This document shows positions 7,920-17,994 of a DNA stretch of 64,000 nt, piece by piece. Numbering within the stretch: the stretch's first letter is position 1; each line of letters opens with the position of its first letter. Below the pieces are notes generated by a model. The model ran no database searches and was not told the DNA's origin. It worked only from the letters and a program-made list of their open reading frames with translations. The translations under genes were made by a program, and so were the position numbers. Source of the stretch: Polaromonas sp. (lineage in GTDB: Bacteria; Pseudomonadota; Gammaproteobacteria; Burkholderiales; Burkholderiaceae_C); the NCBI GenBank assembly GCA_013298815.1, contig JAAFJF010000007.1, positions 1-64,000 on the forward strand, given 5' to 3'.

Positions 7920-9113
7920 TTATGGGTTAACAGCAGCTAAATTTTTTAAATGCTGCGGTATCAAATCAAACAAAGGGGTTGTTTCGCGCTTGAGTGTCGC
8001 AGTTAAACTCGTGCTGTCGATGCTGAGTGATAAATTGCCAGCATTCAAATTAGCTAATTGCTGCATCCAGCCAATGTTGAGACTGCCATTCTGTCCAGGT
8101 TTTGAATAGATGAGTGATAGCATCCGTTTGGCGGAGAGATTGCCTTTGATAGCCGCTAAGTTGTACAAGCGAATGGCCTCTGCATAATTTACTTGGCAAC
8201 CACTGGGGCCTGCTTGGCCTCGGTGCAGCGCTTGTGCCGTGCTGAAAAGTATTGAGTCAGACAAGTCGGCAGTATTTTGTATTTTGCAATTTACTGGGTT
8301 ATCAGTTTGCCGTGCTTGCAGCAAGGTAGCATTTTGAGCAGCAACCATCGAATATGGAGCGGCAGTTGAAAAATAGCCCTGTGCCTCCTTTATTTTTTCT
8401 GCGGCCACAGCATCAAAACCTAGTTCAATCAATGCTTGTACATCGTACAGCTTAGCCGCATTGAGCAATATTTGCCGCCGCTGTTGGCGGGTTTTCTCAA
8501 GCAGACCGGCGCTTGCAGCAGAGTTGTTATGCAGTGGCGAAAAAGTGTCCTCTAAAAGCCAGTCCAAATACAGTGCTCGGCCAGGCTTGACTGTGCGCAA
8601 TTGCGCTATCCAAGCGCGGGCTTTGTTGGCGGACGGCAGGCTCTCGCAGCCTTGAATCTCACACCATGCCAAACCAGCAAATGCTGAAGCTTCGCCAAGT
8701 TGTTGGGCTTGTCTGAAACGCAGCAGTGCTTCGCTGTAATCAACCTCAACTCCAAAACCGTTGGCAGACAACAAGCCCAGTACCCACGCCGCGTTGGCAG
8801 CTTGTCTTCTCTGTTGTAAAGCGGTTGGGGTGGTTTTTCCTGCGACACCAGCGCTTGCTTTATTGACAACTGCTTTGAGATTTTCGATTTCAGTTTGTAG
8901 CGCAATCTGGTTTTTGATTGGCTGAACCGAGGGTCTTTGTTGTGGCTGTGCTTCTCTGGGCAGGCTAACTCGGTCTTCAACTGGGTTACCCGCTGGTGTG
9001 CTGGCAGAGGGCTCTACTTGCACGCTGTGGGCTAACTTTGGTGTTAGCAGCACGATTGCTGCAGCGCAAGCTAACACCGTATTTACGACGATTGTCAAAT
9101 GATCGTGCTTCAT
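7920..9113 (-). CDS. Sel1/TPR-like repeat protein, last gene of the amyloid-like operon
   Basis: The 397-residue protein has one N-terminal hydrophobic segment (about residues 10-30; signal anchor or signal peptide), a short coiled-coil-like stretch (I-A-L-Q-T-E-I-E-N-L-K) and at least two Sel1-like repeats. These are around N-A-A-W-V-L-G-L-L...A-L-L-R-F-R-Q-A and Y-A-E-A-I-R-L-Y-N-L-A-A-I-K-G. Such repeats are protein-protein scaffolds. It follows the CsgG-like gene by 21 bases on the same strand, so it is probably co-transcribed and may assist assembly in the periplasm. No direct family match recognised. Confidence 0.65.
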   Translation of the reverse strand: MKHDHLTIVVNTVLACAAAIVLLTPKLAHSVQVEPSASTPAGNPVEDRVSLPREAQPQQRPSVQPIKNQIALQTEIENLKAVVNKASAGVAGKTTPTALQQRRQAANAAWVLGLLSANGFGVEVDYSEALLRFRQAQQLGEASAFAGLAWCEIQGCESLPSANKARAWIAQLRTVKPGRALYLDWLLEDTFSPLHNNSAASAGLLEKTRQQRRQILLNAAKLYDVQALIELGFDAVAAEKIKEAQGYFSTAAPYSMVAAQNATLLQARQTDNPVNCKIQNTADLSDSILFSTAQALHRGQAGPSGCQVNYAEAIRLYNLAAIKGNLSAKRMLSLIYSKPGQNGSLNIGWMQQLANLNAGNLSLSIDSTSLTATLKRETTPLFDLIPQHLKNLAAVNP

Positions 9114-9134
9114 ATGAACACATGGATTGACGGT

Positions 9135-10826
9135 TTACTTCTGAGCTGCTTTTACAGTTTTTGGTGTGACTTTCCATGTCACCGTCGCTTGGCTTAAACC
9201 CGCTTCACCTGTAATTTGTGCAAAAGCGCTCAAAACATCGGCTTTGCTGGACATACCTGCTATGGGTTTGAAAGCTGCAACTTGCATGGCAGCGGGTAGT
9301 TTGGGCATCACATCTTCATCAGTTGCAATGCAAGTCACATACTCATTGCCCGGGGCGGCTGCATCCAAAATAAAACCTGGCTTTGGGTTGATCCAATCCG
9401 GTATGCGCACAGACACATCAGCTGTCATCAAAGACTCAGCGTTGGTTGCGTTTGGCAACAAGCGCAACACATTGCCAGTGGCTTCTTGCAGGTAGCAGTA
9501 AACATGTGAAGCCCTAGAAACACTGGTAGATAAGAAAATTTGGTCTCCTACTTCAAACGAAGTTTTGTCAAGCTGCACGTTCTTTATTTGTAAATCCATG
9601 CTGCGTGGTACGTCAGCTAGTTTCAACTCTCCACTCGGAGTCCAGTCCACTGGAACCAGTTTACCGTCAGTGTCGAGCTTGGTGTAGTTGCGCATCACGC
9701 GTTCGTATGTTGGGAAGTCGATAACACCCGTAACCACCATACCCGAATCTGCTTGGTATTTACCAAGTATGGCTTTGAAAGTAGCTGTGTTATCTGGCTC
9801 TACAACTTGTGGCTGCTTCATGTAGCCCAAACCGACTAAGGCAGTTTTAACCAATTTTGAATGTGTTTCAGGTCTGCCAGCGTCATACCAGTCGCGCAGT
9901 TGGCGTTGTAACTCTGGATGTGTTTGGTCCAAAGTCAAACAACGCCAGTACGGCAGGCGCGACCATTTGCCGATCAGCTCAATCATAGCCAAATCTACCA
10001 AAGTACGAATAGCAGCGCCAGGACCTTGCGTGTAATCACGCCCCACATTGAACTGAACGCCGTAGCTGCCAATTTTCCCAGCCAAATCTAGTCCTTGGCT
10101 GGCATTGCCAATCACAACTTCGTTGGCTGAGTCTAGGCCTGGAATTATGGTTCGTGTTTTGAAGTCCCCCATGTGCAAGTCAAGACCAATCAGGGTTGCA
10201 TTTTTGTTTGTGCTGTAACCAGTCTCCAACCGCGTGGCTGAAGTACCGGCTTCAAAATGGTTGCTAATGATGTTTTGATCTACAAAAGACACTGCACCTG
10301 AAACATACAAAGCAGGCTTTTGTAATTGCATTTGGTTGTTGTTTAACATGATGGCGGTCATGTTTTGAACGGTGTCTTGGCGGGAAATGTCAACCTCATA
10401 ATCAATATACCTAAACGCGTTTGACAAGCGCGACATTTGCGACAAGGCTGTAACAATCATGTCTTTGGTTGCCACTGCAATCTTGCCTGTCACATCAGGA
10501 ATTTGTTTCGAAGTGATGAGTGTTGTGGGTAAATCGGCTTGCCTAAACATGTGGTCCATACACATCAAAGACGGTGACATGCTAGAGAGCGAACGTGTTG
10601 GACGTGAAGTTGGACGGTCTGCAATCGACGCATTCGATTGGTATTTTGCGTCTTTGCGTGCGTCCATAGGTGCAGCACAGCCAGTGATAATCAACGATGC
10701 CAACAACGGCAACAGAACGGGTAAACGTATCGGCAAGCGATCTGATAAACGCATCGGTGAGTGAATCAGTAAATCAAGGCGACCATGAATTGTTGATGAT
10801 TTACTGGTTGTAGTGACGGTATTCAT
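9135..10826 (-). CDS. CsgG-like lipoprotein fused to peptidoglycan-binding-like and DUF4384 domains
   Basis: The 563-residue protein has a lipobox I-T-G-C at residues 47-50. Residues about 110-290 resemble CsgG, the curli export pore: an N-terminal alpha/beta region, A-L-Y-V-S-G-A-V-S-F, a strand pair around L-I-G-L-D-L-H-M-G-D-F-K-T-R, then a region ending in R-T-L-V-D-L-A-M-I-E-L-I. Residues about 322-380 look like a peptidoglycan-binding domain (V-K-T-A-L-V-G-L-G-Y...F-K-A-I-L-G-K-Y-Q). Residues about 420-510 match DUF4384 (F-E-V-G-D-Q-I-F-L-S and Y-C-Y-L-Q-E). It is more than twice as long as E. coli CsgG. An alternative start at Met25 (10754) gives a tighter signal peptide; the longer start has an AAGG site. 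The role as exporter of the adjacent repeat proteins is inferred. Confidence 0.72.
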   Translation of the reverse strand: MNTVTTTSKSSTIHGRLDLLIHSPMRLSDRLPIRLPVLLPLLASLIITGCAAPMDARKDAKYQSNASIADRPTSRPTRSLSSMSPSLMCMDHMFRQADLPTTLITSKQIPDVTGKIAVATKDMIVTALSQMSRLSNAFRYIDYEVDISRQDTVQNMTAIMLNNNQMQLQKPALYVSGAVSFVDQNIISNHFEAGTSATRLETGYSTNKNATLIGLDLHMGDFKTRTIIPGLDSANEVVIGNASQGLDLAGKIGSYGVQFNVGRDYTQGPGAAIRTLVDLAMIELIGKWSRLPYWRCLTLDQTHPELQRQLRDWYDAGRPETHSKLVKTALVGLGYMKQPQVVEPDNTATFKAILGKYQADSGMVVTGVIDFPTYERVMRNYTKLDTDGKLVPVDWTPSGELKLADVPRSMDLQIKNVQLDKTSFEVGDQIFLSTSVSRASHVYCYLQEATGNVLRLLPNATNAESLMTADVSVRIPDWINPKPGFILDAAAPGNEYVTCIATDEDVMPKLPAAMQVAAFKPIAGMSSKADVLSAFAQITGEAGLSQATVTWKVTPKTVKAAQK

Positions 10827-10867
10827 GGTGTGCTAGCCTTATTGATAGATTTTTTTGTTAAAGAGTT

Positions 10868-11293
10868 TTACTTGCAAATATTGACCAAATCGCCTTTTAA
10901 AACCACGATTTGTGCACCGCCTTTGGGTCCGTACTTACCAAAACCTGTGGCTGTTGATGCTGAGCTGCCCACCTCTTGTACGCAAACTTTATTCAAACCT
11001 TGTGCGCTGGCAGTCGTTACCGCATCGTTGTCTGTCAGAAGATTGTCGGTACCGTTATCAGAATAGGCGCGTGCTTCATATCGCGTGACACGTGCCCGTA
11101 GCCAGCCCTGCATGCCGAAAAGCGGATCTAAACTACCAGAGACTTGCTGCGGCGCTGTGGGCCTCAGCTCTGTTTTTGAAAGTTTAGTCAAATTAATGGG
11201 GTCTTCGCCTGGTGCGAACTGTGCGAAAGCAGCCAGTGGCGTTAAGAGGCACATTGCTAGGCAAAGTGAAGAAATTTTTAAATGGTTTTTCAT
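10868..11293 (-). CDS. Small exported protein of the amyloid-like operon, unknown family
   Basis: The 141-residue protein has a clear Sec signal peptide ending L-A-A-F-A (residues 20-24). The mature part has no repeats, with R-A-R-V-T-R-Y-E-A-R-A-Y in the centre and two cysteines (C-V-Q-E-V and I-C-K at the end) that could form a disulfide. It lies between the second amyloid-like subunit (50 bases) and the CsgG-like gene (41 bases), where curli systems encode accessory factors such as CsgE or CsgF. I see no sequence similarity to those. An ACAGGT ribosome site precedes the start. Confidence 0.65.
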   Translation of the reverse strand: MKNHLKISSLCLAMCLLTPLAAFAQFAPGEDPINLTKLSKTELRPTAPQQVSGSLDPLFGMQGWLRARVTRYEARAYSDNGTDNLLTDNDAVTTASAQGLNKVCVQEVGSSASTATGFGKYGPKGGAQIVVLKGDLVNICK

Positions 11294-11342
11294 GATGATT
11301 TACCTGTAAAAAATTCATTAAAAGAATGAGTAACCACTAGGG

Positions 11343-11801
11343 TTAACGTCTAGTGCCACAATTGCCAGATGGACAACTGAAGCAAGCATTGTTAGATGCG
11401 ACGTTTTGAATGGCATAAGTGCTGTGGCCTTGCGCACTGTTGTAGGCATAAGCGCCTTGCATGGATGTGATCTGCATAGATCTACCGCCAATGCGTGTAT
11501 CACCTAGATTGGATGAAAAATTTTGACTGGCCATGCTTTCGCTGCCAATGACTTCATTGCGTGCAAAACTGCCCTGTGCTGCAACCATTTGTACTGAGCT
11601 ACCGGTAATCACCACGCCACCTGTGTTGCTTGCCAAATTTTGTTGTGCTGTGCTAGCGTTACCAAAGACGACGTTGCTGACGGTCGTGTTGTTGATTGAT
11701 GCTATTTGCATAGATGTACCTGATATCAAAACCGGGTCATACCCAGAGGCACTTGCGTTTGCAATAAACAAACTCAGTAGCAGTGACAAAATGGTTTTCA
11801 T
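11343..11801 (-). CDS. Secreted 39-residue-repeat protein B (curlin-like amyloid subunit candidate)
   Basis: The 152-residue protein has a signal peptide cleaved near A-S-A (residues 16-18). The mature chain is three repeats of exactly 39 residues (about 23-61, 62-100, 101-139). Each begins with a I-x-G-x-S-x-Q core (Gln at 32, 71 and 110) and ends in Q-N-x-x-S-N. The tail C-F-S-C-P-S-G-N-C (Cys 140, 143, 148) is unusual for an amyloid. It is a clear paralogue of the next upstream gene (same period, phase and tail), as CsgB is to CsgA. Compared with that paralogue its repeats are less regular and contain Met and bulky residues, so it may be the nucleator or minor subunit. That functional split is inference. 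Confidence 0.7.
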   Translation of the reverse strand: MKTILSLLLSLFIANASASGYDPVLISGTSMQIASINNTTVSNVVFGNASTAQQNLASNTGGVVITGSSVQMVAAQGSFARNEVIGSESMASQNFSSNLGDTRIGGRSMQITSMQGAYAYNSAQGHSTYAIQNVASNNACFSCPSGNCGTRR

Positions 11802-11847
11802 AGCCGTTCCCTAGTACGCTTGCAATTTAGATATTCAACAAATTCTC

Positions 11848-11916
11848 AAATACTTTGAAGCTTTCAAAAACATGGCTTGCCGTTTCGAGCGCAGCAACAT
11901 GTTCTTGAAAGTATTT
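11848..11916 (-). promoter_or_regulatory. Intercistronic inverted repeat between the two amyloid-like subunit genes
   Basis: AAATACTTT at 11848-11856 pairs with AAAGTATTT at 11908-11916, and TTCAA...AACATG further in pairs with CATGTTCTTGAA. The result is an imperfect hairpin of about 17 bp around a roughly 25-base loop. No T run follows, so it looks like an mRNA-stabilising or attenuating element rather than a terminator. It would favour expression of the first subunit over downstream genes. Confidence 0.5.
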
Positions 11917-11928
11917 AGCTAATACAAA

Positions 11929-12408
11929 TTAACGAGTTCCGCCAACGCAAGTTGTACAAGAGTTGTTAGATGCAATGTTTTGCGTGCCAGAGTTGTCACG
12001 ACCGCTGACGTGGTTGCTCACGTTGGCGTAAGTTGTCGATGTTGTCTGTGTCGATGTTCCGCTGATAGAAACAGAACCAACATTTGACGACAAGTTTTGG
12101 CTTGCGACGTTGTCATTGCCTGTCACTGTGTTGGTGATAGAGCCGCCACGTGCAGACACAGTTTGAGTTGAACGGCCACGAATATCGATGTCACCGGCGT
12201 TTGATGCCAAGTTTTGTTGACCGATGTTGTCATTGCCGGATACACGGTTAGACACATTCACGCCATTGAGGGTGGCGCTTTGAGTTGATGTACCGCTGAT
12301 AACAACGTCAGTTGCAGCAGAAGGACCGCTACCGCCACCGTGACCGCCACCTGATGCGAATGCTGTTGCTGCAAACAAAGCCAAAGCCAAGATAGAAAGT
12401 TTTTTCAT
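11929..12408 (-). CDS. Secreted 39-residue-repeat protein A (curlin-like amyloid subunit candidate, major)
   Basis: The 159-residue protein has a signal peptide cleaved after A-F-A (residue 18) and a Gly/His-rich linker (19-29). Three exact 39-residue repeats follow (34-72, 73-111, 112-150). Each contains I-x-G-x-S-T-Q at its start (Gln 43, 82, 121), V-x-G-x-D-N in the middle and Q-N-x-x-S-N near its end. A C-x-x-C tail follows at 151 and 154. The G-N-D-N-x-x-x-Q-N spacing recalls curlin repeats, although the period is about two curlin units. Composition is Ser/Thr/Asn/Gln/Gly-rich, as in functional amyloids. It is first in the operon and has a strong AAAGGGGA ribosome site, consistent with a major extracellular subunit. 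Confidence 0.72.
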   Translation of the reverse strand: MKKLSILALALFAATAFASGGGHGGGSGPSAATDVVISGTSTQSATLNGVNVSNRVSGNDNIGQQNLASNAGDIDIRGRSTQTVSARGGSITNTVTGNDNVASQNLSSNVGSVSISGTSTQTTSTTYANVSNHVSGRDNSGTQNIASNNSCTTCVGGTR

Positions 12409-12449
12409 GATAAATCCCCTTTAAGAAACGATTAAATTAATTTAAAAAT

Positions 12450-12483
12450 TTCCGAACATCTTTTTGCTCAACGGTGCTCGGAA
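12450..12483 (-). promoter_or_regulatory. Inverted repeat in the 5' leader of the amyloid-like operon
   Basis: TTCCGAACA (12450-12458) and TGCTCGGAA (12475-12483) form a nine-base inverted repeat with one mismatch, about 42 bases before the start codon of subunit A. It could be a leader hairpin or a regulator site. Confidence 0.4.
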
Positions 12484-12567
12484 GCTTTGATGAAACCAGT
12501 TGCCATGCATGCAGAATTTGTTTGCACATCGCTTCTGTTTTCATCTGGCGCTAGTTTCCGGCGAGGA

Positions 12568-12575
12568 GGGGGGGG
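12568..12575. other. Homopolymer of eight G in the divergent control region
   Basis: A G8 tract sits between the amyloid operon leader and the direct repeats. Tracts of this length can slip during replication and alter promoter spacing, but nothing else here demonstrates phase variation. Confidence 0.4.
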
Positions 12576-12579
12576 CTTC

Positions 12580-12613
12580 AATACCGTGTTATGCCTACCA
12601 AAAATACCGTGTT
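12580..12613. promoter_or_regulatory. Direct repeats, candidate operator of the divergent response regulator
   Basis: The 11-mer AATACCGTGTT occurs at 12580-12590 and again at 12603-12613, with starts 23 bases apart (about two helical turns). The repeats lie between the amyloid operon and the LuxR-type regulator gene. The spacing suits tandem dimers of a NarL/FixJ-type regulator. The link to this regulator is inferred from position. Confidence 0.5.
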
Positions 12614-12788
12614 TTATTACCCAAAAAATGAGTACTTTTTGATGCACTTAGAGTTAAACGCTAAGAAATTGAATACCTTCGATTAGGTATAAGGTTTTAA
12701 AAATGGTAGTTTCTTAGTGAATCAAATGTAAATTTTTGAAACATTTCAAATAAATGCGTCATTTTTATTTGCTTTTGTTCAATCTTTT

Positions 12789-13001
12789 ATGGCTTTCCAT
12801 GAAGCACATAAAAAGCAACCCTTGTCATTGGAAAAAGAAGCTTTAAATGAAGCTCAATGGTTGAGAACTGCATCGTTTATGTTTAAAAATCGGGTGATTT
12901 GTAATTCAAAAGATTCTATTTTTGGGGATTATTTACATAGCATTTGTCATCAAGAATGGTTAATCTTCCTTCAAGCTATAAGCCAAGAATTAACCAAATG
13001 A
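12789..13001 (+). CDS. Possible small protein upstream of the amyloid-locus regulator
   Basis: A 70-codon frame ends 22 bases before the regulator gene. It starts with M-A-F-H-E-A-H-K-K-Q and has no signal peptide and no recognisable domain. No good ribosome site precedes it, and the region is AT-rich, which lowers confidence. It could instead be untranslated leader of the regulator mRNA. Confidence 0.3.
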   Translation: MAFHEAHKKQPLSLEKEALNEAQWLRTASFMFKNRVICNSKDSIFGDYLHSICHQEWLIFLQAISQELTK

Positions 13002-13023
13002 TACGTATCAAAGGAGGTTTAAG

Positions 13024-13860
13024 ATGAATCAACACGTAACCAGTTTCGGTGACAAAAACAAAGCTAGCGACATGAATCTTTCAAATGTCGGCAACGCAAA
13101 CGCCAACAAATTAGCGTCACAGGGGCAATTTGCTTACTTTGCTAATCCTGCAAATTTATGGCCTGACTTTTTGTTGGGTCAAGCCAGCCAACCACTGCGC
13201 GTTATTTTGATCGAGGAAGACGCACACATGCGCAGTGTCGTTGGTCAAGAGCTTGGTGGCGACCCCCGTACAACGCTGGTGGCAACTGCCAGCAATATGC
13301 GAGAAGGCAAAAATTTAATAGCAAACTATGCATTTGATGTGATGCTTTTAGACTTGAATTTGCGAGATGGCATGAGCTTTGAATTGTTGAAATACATGCG
13401 CATGCATAGACCTGCAGCTGAAGCTCTGGTGATATCCATGATGGACGATGAGGAAAAAGCCATCACCGCGTTTGACCTTGGCGCGAATGGTTATATTGTT
13501 AAAAATTCATGGTTCGGCAATTACGCCCAAGCTGTGCTGCAAGTGGCCAATGGCGGCGCTTTTATATCGCCAAGCCTTGCGCGCAGGCTGATAAAAAAAT
13601 TCGCAAATAGCTCACATGCTGAGCTGCAACAAAACCGCAACCAAGTGATTCCATTGCACACCAATGGCGTTTTGTCGTTCAGAGAGCGCGAAATTCTAGA
13701 ACTGGTTGCAGACGGTTGCACCAGCAGCGCCATTGCCTTGAAAATCAACATCAGCACCCAAACCGTCACGACCCACATCAAAAACATCTACCGCAAATTG
13801 CAAGTACACACGCGTGCGCAAGCGGTCAGCAGTGCAAAGAACCAAGGCTTGCTCAGTTAG
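13024..13860 (+). CDS. LuxR/NarL-family response regulator with curlin-like N-terminal extension
   Basis: The 278-residue protein has a receiver domain (about 58-175) with acidic residues 64-66, phosphoacceptor Asp110 (V-M-L-L-D-L-N) and Lys160. A LuxR-type helix-turn-helix follows (about 216-272; L-S-F-R-E-R-E-I-L and V-T-T-H-I-K-N-I-Y-R-K-L). A 57-residue N-terminal extension precedes the receiver. Its residues 9-34 (G-D-K-N-K-A-S ... N-V-G-N-A-N ... A-S-Q-G) look like a curlin or subunit-A repeat. The start has an AAAGGAGG site. It is divergent from the amyloid-like operon, as csgD is from csgBA, and has no adjacent sensor kinase. Confidence 0.85.
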   Translation: MNQHVTSFGDKNKASDMNLSNVGNANANKLASQGQFAYFANPANLWPDFLLGQASQPLRVILIEEDAHMRSVVGQELGGDPRTTLVATASNMREGKNLIANYAFDVMLLDLNLRDGMSFELLKYMRMHRPAAEALVISMMDDEEKAITAFDLGANGYIVKNSWFGNYAQAVLQVANGGAFISPSLARRLIKKFANSSHAELQQNRNQVIPLHTNGVLSFREREILELVADGCTSSAIALKINISTQTVTTHIKNIYRKLQVHTRAQAVSSAKNQGLLS

Positions 13861-16802: not shown

Positions 16803-17330
16803 CTATAGCGAGTTGCTAAATTTCTGTGATGTCAATATCAGTGTTCGAATAGCTTCTGCACCTTGCACTGGGCTCATAACAGACGTGTCTATTGACAGGT
16901 CATAAGTGCGACGAAAAACCGGATGGTTAGCCTGCTCTCGAGCCATACCGTTAGCACGGTCATCACGAAGTCGCTCCCTCTGCTCGAGCACTTCTATCGG
17001 TGCCCACACGTGAATTTGATACAGGGGTCTTGTTGCAAGAGCACGAAGGCATTCATGAAGCTCTTCTTCGTGACGCAGCACGGTGTCAAAAATTATCTCG
17101 AAGCGCGTCGCAGCCAACCGTGTCAAGGTTGATCTTAGGTTTTCACAATGAATGTGATACACCTCGGCAGTCTCTTCCGAGCTTCTCATGTCGCGTCGTC
17201 GAGACATAGTTACAAATGCGTCAAGAGAAATATGAAATGCCGGAATTGGCGCGCAATCTTGCAGCGCTTGGGCAAGACTAGATTTACCTGCGCTCGTCGG
17301 CCCGTGCAGAAGGATAGCTGCCGATTTCAT
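16803..17330 (-). CDS. Chloramphenicol phosphotransferase-like (CPT-like) P-loop protein
   Basis: From Met at 17330 the protein has about 175 residues and opens with a P-loop, L-L-H-G-P-T-S-A-G-K-S-S. Downstream are F-H-I-S-L-D-A-F and a helical region with R-E-R-L-R-D-D-R. This matches the CPT-like P-loop kinase family, whose founding member phosphorylates chloramphenicol; most relatives have unknown substrates, so resistance should not be assumed. The frame is open 18 codons further upstream, but those codons lie in a dispersed-repeat copy, so I prefer the start at the P-loop end. No clear ribosome site supports either. Confidence 0.7.
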   Translation of the reverse strand: MKSAAILLHGPTSAGKSSLAQALQDCAPIPAFHISLDAFVTMSRRRDMRSSEETAEVYHIHCENLRSTLTRLAATRFEIIFDTVLRHEEELHECLRALATRPLYQIHVWAPIEVLEQRERLRDDRANGMAREQANHPVFRRTYDLSIDTSVMSPVQGAEAIRTLILTSQKFSNSL

Positions 17331-17348
17331 GAAATTTACCATATTTAA

Positions 17349-17408
17349 CTGCAAAAAAAATAGCACCTTAGGCAATAAATACATTGGCTACAGCCATATG
17401 TAGCCCCC
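17349..17408 (+). repeat. Dispersed repeat, copy 5
   Basis: AATAGCACCTTAGGCAATAA and ATACATTGGCTA match the family in plus orientation. It fills the space between the CPT-like gene start and the MazF-like gene end, and would add an artificial N-terminus if the longer CPT-like frame were used. Confidence 0.75.
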
Positions 17409-17410
17409 AT

Positions 17411-17737
17411 TCACTCAAATATCGGCGAAACAGCCTCCACAACCGCTTCAATCACCGCAGCCGGTGCACTTTCAACTTTGCGGGCTTTTCTAGCCAAAAT
17501 ATCCAGCGTTCGCACTTGGTCGCAGCGCACGATGCCTTGGGTTTTGGTGCCTACCAGTTCAACAGCAAAGCCACGGATTCGCGCAAAGTTGCCGCCGTTG
17601 GTGATGGGTGCGACCACGGGGGTTTGCGTTAATTTGTTGAATGCTGTGGCTGAGACGATCATCACGGGTCGATGGCCGCCTTGCTCGTGGCCTGCGATGG
17701 GGTCGAGCGAGACCATGTAGATGTCGCCGCGTTTCAT
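17411..17737 (-). CDS. MazF/PemK-type mRNA interferase toxin
   Basis: The 108-residue protein starts M-K-R-G-D-I-Y-M-V-S-L-D-P and holds G-H-E-Q-G-G-H-R-P-V-M-I-V-S, the hallmark of MazF/PemK ribosome-independent endoribonucleases. The later C-D-Q-V-R-T-L-D is also conserved. The start overlaps the antitoxin stop (ATGA), so expression is coupled. Closest by appearance to ChpB/MazF-like toxins. Confidence 0.9.
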   Translation of the reverse strand: MKRGDIYMVSLDPIAGHEQGGHRPVMIVSATAFNKLTQTPVVAPITNGGNFARIRGFAVELVGTKTQGIVRCDQVRTLDILARKARKVESAPAAVIEAVVEAVSPIFE

Positions 17738-17994
17738 AGAAGCTCGTTACCCACTGGGCGAAGTGTGTCCCAATCGGCATCTGGTGCGGGCATGGGGGCA
17801 TTAACGTCGCATTGGGCTAACAAGTCGTTCAATGTGGGTTTTTTACGTTGCAATGGCTTGATGACTATGGCATTGCTGCTGTTCAGCTCAAGGCTCACGT
17901 TTTCACCAATGTGCAGGTTCAGCATGTTGATAATAGAGGGTGGAATGGCAATCATGGCGGAGCCGCCAACTTTGCGTAATGAGGTTGCGTACAT
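17734..17994 (-). CDS. MazE-type AbrB-fold antitoxin
   Basis: The 86-residue protein has the SpoVT/AbrB-like DNA-binding fold (L-R-K-V-G-G-S-A-M-I-A-I-P-P, residues 6-19). Its acidic C-terminal tail (D-A-D-W-D-T-L-R) would wrap the toxin. It precedes the toxin gene with a 4-base overlap and should repress its own promoter with the toxin as co-repressor. Confidence 0.88.
   Translation of the reverse strand: MYATSLRKVGGSAMIAIPPSIINMLNLHIGENVSLELNSSNAIVIKPLQRKKPTLNDLLAQCDVNAPMPAPDADWDTLRPVGNELL

Follow-up and report, generated by a model that had tools for sequence, protein, structure and literature searches.

Does a secretion machine of the curli type still build fibres when its accessory proteins are missing and its substrates are not curlins? 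This question is raised by a group of six genes in Polaromonas sp. (assembly GCA_013298815.1, contig JAAFJF010000007.1), found in a stretch of 64,000 nucleotides that we call the window. Five of the genes form an operon for two repeat-containing exported subunits (SubA and SubB), a small exported protein, a lipoprotein with a CsgG-like domain and a Sel1-like protein, and the sixth encodes a divergent regulator. We consider it probable that the locus encodes type VIII-like (CsgG-type) machinery for the export and assembly of fibres made of repeat proteins. An earlier description made from the letters of the DNA alone (the original prediction) had placed the six genes at the coordinates that we also find, five on one strand and the regulator divergent:

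13024 to 13860, plus strand: divergent response regulator of 278 amino acids (aa), with a receiver domain and a LuxR/GerE helix-turn-helix domain (Pfam GerE 2e-18, Response_reg 2e-14)
12580-12590 and 12603-12613: direct repeat of AATACCGTGTT in front of subA, a candidate regulator site from reading the sequence
11929 to 12408, minus strand: subA, exported subunit, 159 aa, with three 39-residue repeats and a C-terminal CTTC
11802 to 11928, minus strand: subA-subB spacer with a long inverted repeat, a possible attenuator or mRNA-stability element
11343 to 11801, minus strand: subB, paralogous exported subunit, 152 aa, with three 39-residue repeats and a CFSCPSGNC tail
10868 to 11293, minus strand: small exported protein, 141 aa, with two C-terminal cysteines and the end GDLVNICK
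9135 to 10826, minus strand: exporter lipoprotein, 563 aa, with lipobox Cys50, CsgG fold at residues 79-300, peptidoglycan (PG)-binding-like region at about 325-375 and DUF4384 at 424-504
7920 to 9113, minus strand: Sel1-like exported or anchored protein, 397 aa, with Pfam Sel1 below cut-off

The operon runs along the minus strand from 12408 to 7920 in the order subA, subB, small protein, lipoprotein and Sel1-like protein, and the spacers between its five genes measure 127, 49, 41 and 21 bases. We assigned signal peptides and the lipobox by visual inspection. The Pfam matches agree with the proposed LuxR-type nature of the regulator, and the proposed Sel1 repeats receive a weak match (E 4e-4, 21 bits, with a cut-off of 31).

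The central evidence comes from the lipoprotein, whose residues 79-300 are homologous to CsgG both by fold and by profile-profile comparison, as its resemblance to CsgG had suggested. In the AlphaFold model of the exporter (predicted local distance difference test, pLDDT, 81; predicted template modelling score, pTM, 0.53), long strands extend over residues 173-266. Foldseek returned 25 matches from the PDB at E up to 0.001, every one a CsgG chain, and on re-alignment the CsgG structures score Z 13-16 (top 16.4 over 203 residues) with 176-204 residues aligned. Compared as profiles, exporter residues 80-302 and 13 CsgG-family proteins gave a probability of 93%, an E of 3.4e-7 and a score of 50, and none of 60 column-shuffled controls scored above 23. 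This comparison yielded nothing for the PG-binding and DUF4384 parts, the Pfam CsgG model does not match the window exporter, and a search of solved structures with the exporter profile matched just the PG-binding-like region.

Could such a protein be a scaffold with the CsgG fold and no pore, that is, a ring bound to the wall in the manner of PelC, FlgT or LPHT, whose repeat proteins are soluble or act as ring-bound adhesins? These three rings do share the core fold (Z 9-10), and the exporter bears wall-binding-like domains. Nevertheless, they align over 121-143 residues and score below the CsgG structures, the exporter model has the long strands mentioned above, and the gene is linked to genes for repeat proteins with signal peptides; we regard the scaffold as very unlikely. 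As for the wall-binding-like domains, the proposed fusion to DUF4384 is confirmed in the window exporter (Pfam, 2e-13), whereas the PG-binding-like domain stays below threshold there (13 bits, cut-off 23) and is recognised in its relatives. Among 56 exporters, hand-chosen from 83 listed stretches with near-duplicates thinned, Pfam at E up to 0.01 finds DUF4384 in all and PG_binding_1 in 52, and cysteines 89, 296, 444 and 499 are invariant in all 56. The architecture is not unique to this family, as the CsgG proteins of loci L129 and L130 also end, by eye, in a PG-binding-like stretch. Elsewhere in the Polaromonas genome, on another contig, an orphan lipoprotein-like protein of 274 aa (L001 1450-2274, C34) is the sole Pfam CsgG match.

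The only curated model that matches the CsgG region of the window exporter is NCBIfam HfaB (residues 45-286, 7e-7), which, at E up to 0.01, also recognises 40 of those 56 exporters. This brings in a second possibility, namely that the exporter displays a short subunit polymer to hold a polysaccharide or another adhesin, as HfaABD do with the Caulobacter holdfast, and that no long fibres are made. According to the available parts of one paper, HfaA is CsgA-like and forms multimers resistant to sodium dodecyl sulphate and heat, and targeting of HfaA and HfaD depends on HfaB (PMC6707917). Yet the window exporter scores 28.7 bits where the HfaB cut-off is 300; NCBIfam, at E up to 1, matches nothing on SubA or the small protein and nothing Hfa-like on SubB; and the operon contains no adhesin-sized extra gene, HfaD and holdfast genes themselves not having been searched for. 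On balance an anchor of this kind seems unlikely.

Is the exporter reliably linked to its putative substrates? One scan found 151 relatives, of which the best 80 were kept; most of the 60 closest (L036-L094 and L100) bear titles of Comamonadaceae genera, among them Polaromonas, Acidovorax, Hydrogenophaga, Comamonas and Delftia, the remainder being titled as Beta- or Gammaproteobacteria, Burkholderiales, Burkholderiaceae, Pseudomonadota and, once, Pantoea. Regulator, subunit, small protein, exporter and Sel1-like protein occur together in 53 of these 60 loci, in the same order and orientation. The other seven either lie at contig ends (L045, L082 and L048), have short upstream sequence (L052 and L081) or show no regulator within 8 kb (L039 and L093); over all 60, the regulator was matched in 54, the subunit family in 58 and the Sel1-like protein in 59. 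In a sample of 200 family genomes that includes our own, with all listed genomes shared between the exporter and subunit searches, 24 carry the exporter (E up to 1e-60) and 23 match the subunit profile (E up to 1e-8). All 23 fall within the 24, with the nearest subunit match 0.5-0.9 kb from the exporter match, and the sole genome with an exporter and no subunit match (G407) carries a more distant exporter. Subunit-exporter linkage is therefore near absolute, in line with the gene neighbourhood originally predicted. The exporter is spread patchily, both in the family (those 24 of 200 genomes) and in the order, where 14 of 300 genomes match at E up to 0.001, and within the genus two of four genomes have subunit matches, one of the others (G523) having neither subunit nor exporter.

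The pair of subunit genes, likened in the original prediction to csgBA, does not belong to this conserved design. Among the type-A loci counted, the group to which the window belongs, the window alone has two subunit genes, and we saw two otherwise only in a genome of the same genus (G403, locus L151); for this reason the pair reads, from sequence, as a genus-level local duplication. A few records of the family deserve mention on their own. The exporter gene is split over two frames in Ottowia beijingensis (L091 7881-9664, tig00001465) and Diaphorobacter aerolatus (L094 7566-9760), with a second, unsplit copy (L073) in the same Ottowia strain. The locus titled Pantoea (L059, NZ_CACSJA010000022.1) is of Comamonadaceae type and groups with Delftia in the tree, so that the record is probably mislabelled or contaminated.

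What, then, would be exported? The 39-residue period proposed for the subunits is real, with lag-39 self-identities of 0.39 in SubA and 0.31 in SubB that were never matched at any lag in 5000 shuffles of each (maxima 0.27 and 0.23). The three repeats are exact in length, as claimed, but not in sequence, since pairs of them are identical at 16-22 of 39 residues in SubA and 14-15 of 39 in SubB. Both proteins have CxxC near the C-terminus, within SCTTC in SubA and CFSCPSGNC in SubB. In the family at large, out of 63 subunit open reading frames (ORFs), which include the window's two and those of L021-L023, apparently from the same genomes as L071, L077 and L057, three repeats are present in 49 (the others range from 2 to 8) and CxxC lies within the last 40 residues in 51, eight more having three cysteines with other spacing. 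Gln and Asn columns recur at period 39, invariant or nearly so, in the alignment of three-repeat subunits. Thus Q43, Q82, Q121, N66, N70, N109 and N148 are invariant in 41 chosen proteins, and at least 90% of these retain N105, Q143, N144, C151 and C154. The SubA structure model places beta strands along the repeats (pLDDT 84-90 over residues 41-140). None of the three outcomes that would have refuted the original prediction came about: profiles do show CsgG similarity, linkage holds, and the subunit model is not globular, although the beta-solenoid reading rests on this moderate-confidence model. A search of solved structures with the subunit profile gave weak matches, the best lectin-like with an E of 0.019.

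Of the 97 sources searched (96 loci and the window), 82 have the small protein by an iterated hidden Markov model (HMM). Each of these 82 proteins carries two cysteines, no more and no fewer, within its last 60 aa and terminates in a cysteine followed by zero to two residues. The window protein matches nothing in Pfam at E up to 10 or in NCBIfam at E up to 1. We propose it as the likely coupling or nucleating factor.

At E up to 0.001 the genome has no match to CsgE (PF10627), CsgF (PF10614), CsgC (PF10610) or the curlin repeat (PF07012), each of which was matched in an Escherichia coli positive control, in agreement with the earlier statement that none of CsgE, CsgF and CsgC is recognisable. 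The parallel drawn with csgBA/csgDEFG thus stands for the export logic (a CsgG-type domain, linkage and no CsgC, CsgE or CsgF) and is not supported for the csgBA pair. It might be argued that this is an ordinary curli system so diverged that its csgE, csgF and curlin genes lie past the reach of HMMs. A CsgG-type exporter, a regulator and exported repeat proteins do share the locus, and the available text of PMC3521004 describes some Alphaproteobacterial curli systems that lack csgE and csgF and many curli systems without CsgC. However, in addition to the negative searches with their positive control, the repeat period and motif differ and the locus has a dedicated small protein and its own exporter C-terminus, which leaves diverged curli hardly credible.

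We therefore return to a CsgG-type system with its own fibres, for which the following mechanism can be proposed. The subunits would enter the periplasm unfolded, by means of their signal peptides, and the lipoprotein would assemble a CsgG-like oligomeric pore in the outer membrane. Its PG-binding-like and DUF4384 domains may tether the pore to the wall and perhaps take the substrate, the work that CsgE and CsgF do in curli. Once exported, subunits would take on a beta-solenoid fold in which each 39-mer makes up one layer and Gln and Asn stack into ladders, and such solenoids would join end to end into amyloid-like fibres, with the small two-cysteine protein coupling or nucleating them. The terminal CxxC may cap, crosslink or anchor the fibre through disulfides. 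The response regulator would activate the operon, and the structured spacer 3′ of the subunit gene may hold subunits in excess. What the data establish is the gene content, the 39-residue period, the domain architecture, the linkage and the homology to CsgG; the pore, export and fibre steps are inferred, with good support from the logic of the family.

The last two steps concern control elements. The AATACCGTGTT block, which we infer to be a candidate regulator site, is also conserved in L151, a locus of the same genus, with a single base changed in one copy. Upstream of subA there is also a run of G, eight at window 12568-12575 and six in L151, that might be a slippage site. We tried GGTAGTAA as a family-wide operator and rejected it, because 14 of 59 upstream regions contain it (at most 8 after shuffling), too few for such a claim. 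An ORF matched by kinase models lies on the same strand within 400 nucleotides in 45 of the 58 loci with a regulator (that of L021 matches HATPase_c, with HisKA_3 just below cut-off), and no such ORF adjoins the regulator gene in the window. Regarding attenuation, spacer folding gives a mild hint: z is below -2 in 43 of 60 spacers (58 from relatives and two from the window, 60 mononucleotide shuffles each), the window's two having z of -1.5 and -0.5.

Several observations weigh against the proposed interpretation. The Pfam CsgG model matches just one of the 56 exporters (E up to 0.01). The subunits show no similarity to curlin, by Pfam or by profile-profile comparison of the repeats, a test low in power because the repeats are short, and the family HMM gives no signal against FapB or FapC. 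The SubA model is of moderate quality (mean pLDDT 75, pTM 0.65) and two of five models fall below pLDDT 50; Foldseek finds no significant PDB match for it. On re-alignment, the CsgA fibril of E. coli (Z 3.8, root-mean-square deviation 8.0, 68 residues) and the FapC fibril (Z 3.4, deviation 4.9, 106 residues) come second and third of 18, tied with an unrelated phage tailspike in first place (Z 4.0), so that the structural likeness of the modelled SubA to these fibrils is suggestive at most. Four of the 63 subunits have no cysteine in their last 30 residues, and the subA-subB spacer of the window, with a folding energy of -28.3 kcal/mol and z -1.5, is not unusually stable.

Is the system restricted to 39-residue repeats? 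Repeat proteins of other kinds share loci with exporters at 22-30% identity, in Accumulibacter, Rhodocyclaceae, Gallionella, Magnetococcales and Thiodiazotropha, and a 'GNT'-type repeat protein was matched in 17 of 20 distant loci. In L026-L029, QxGxxN occurs 4-12 times per protein at a spacing of 30-35 residues (shuffled maxima 3-6), and it is absent from L012 of the same exporter clade; the minimal curli repeat is given as X6QXGX2NX10 in the accessible part of PMC3521004. Pfam curlin does not match the QxGxxN-bearing proteins of this clade. In an exporter tree of 56 rows, thinned by hand, with six rows unlabelled, partner labels set by hand and some branches long, partner type tracks clade (three changes for four groups, shuffled mean 21.8), and a branch with support 100/100 separates the 23 type-A rows from the rest. 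Type C was first picked by eye; a solved-structure search with one type-C subunit returned nothing, and type-A and type-C repeats show no profile-profile similarity in a comparison whose power is likewise limited by their short length. Because the iterated repeat HMMs bleed together (that for type C also gathered type B, and that for type B matches 20 type-A ORFs), the types are labels of convenience, neither proven separate nor related families.

Taken further, these data could point to a third dedicated pathway for functional amyloid, in which wall-tethered pores derived from CsgG work without CsgE and CsgF, different clades export Fap-like 39-mer CxxC, 'GNT' and QxGxxN fibres, and the small protein tethers or nucleates them by disulfide exchange with the subunit tail. 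We put this forward tentatively, as a possibility that we would not yet favour. Beside some distant exporters there are also very large exported-looking repeat proteins, in L033 (3980-7624, 1214 aa), L034 (9633-13490, about 1285 aa) and L032 (9781-11892, 703 aa), and we take genes near those of L033 and L034 to be OmpA-like. In Thiodiazotropha symbionts, many-unit repeat proteins adjoin the exporter in L112 (6629-7600 and 5139-5756) and L115.

Our searches of the open-licence literature, as far as its text was available, found no description of the locus and no paper on DUF4384 together with CsgG. The locus seems to be an undescribed cousin of curli, and we rate it as a variant of CsgG-type amyloid export. 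The available part of PMC12822426 names curli and Fap as the paradigms of functional amyloid in bacteria, and a curli-type exporter joined to a Fap-like subunit geometry would therefore show which parts of these pathways interchange. An exporter that works without CsgE and CsgF would be, in addition, a simple model of pore gating and anchoring. Amyloid has been reported in activated sludge and granules, and the accessible text of a granule study reports that suspected producers showed no transcription of amyloid adhesin genes and low activity (PMC12016536). The exporter-subunit family offers concrete candidates for such amyloid. Apart from the locus, the window carries on its minus strand a MazE/MazF-type toxin-antitoxin pair (17411-17994; Pfam MazE_antitoxin 1e-7, PemK_toxin 8e-27) and near it a small kinase (16803-17384; chloramphenicol phosphotransferase-like 2e-26, zeta toxin 2e-6).

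How does the locus compare with known systems? With curli it shares a lipoprotein exporter of the CsgG fold, short exported Gln/Asn-rich repeat subunits and a regulator with a LuxR-type helix-turn-helix, whose C-terminal part matches the CsgD model (5e-13), the NarL model giving a better match to the regulator (2e-30) and both staying below cut-off. In contrast to curli, the window subunits have a 39-residue period without QxGxxN and CxxC tails, the exporter is fused to PG-binding-like and DUF4384 domains, and there is usually one subunit gene; among the best 25 of the 32 families matched by 41 subunits, PF07012 does not appear.

The layout of the subunits resembles Fap more closely than curli, with no detectable sequence homology to either. 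As described in the available portions of PMC3792158, PMC12392863, PMC6173800 and PMC3684753, Fap subunits have three imperfect repeats of about 39 residues with conserved Asn/Gln arrays, and FapC of some species ends in a CxxC, all features of the window subunits. These differ in lacking long linkers between repeats and in having CxxC where FapB is reported, in the text available, to have no cysteine, and export in Fap relies on the trimeric barrel FapF in place of a CsgG-type pore. Homology of the subunits to Fap was tried as a candidate and dropped, 747 (FapC) and 811 (FapB) of 1000 shuffles scoring as high. With curli-like export, a Fap-like subunit geometry and negative sequence tests, the locus is therefore a member of neither system as tested.

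From Hfa of Caulobacter, the window system is set apart by different accessory genes and by the extra C-terminal domains of an exporter that is, by its score, a distant relative and not an equivalog of HfaB. What the two have in common is that HfaB is the best-matching curated exporter model, and that HfaA is described, in the accessible part of PMC6707917, as a CsgA-like and amyloid-like protein.

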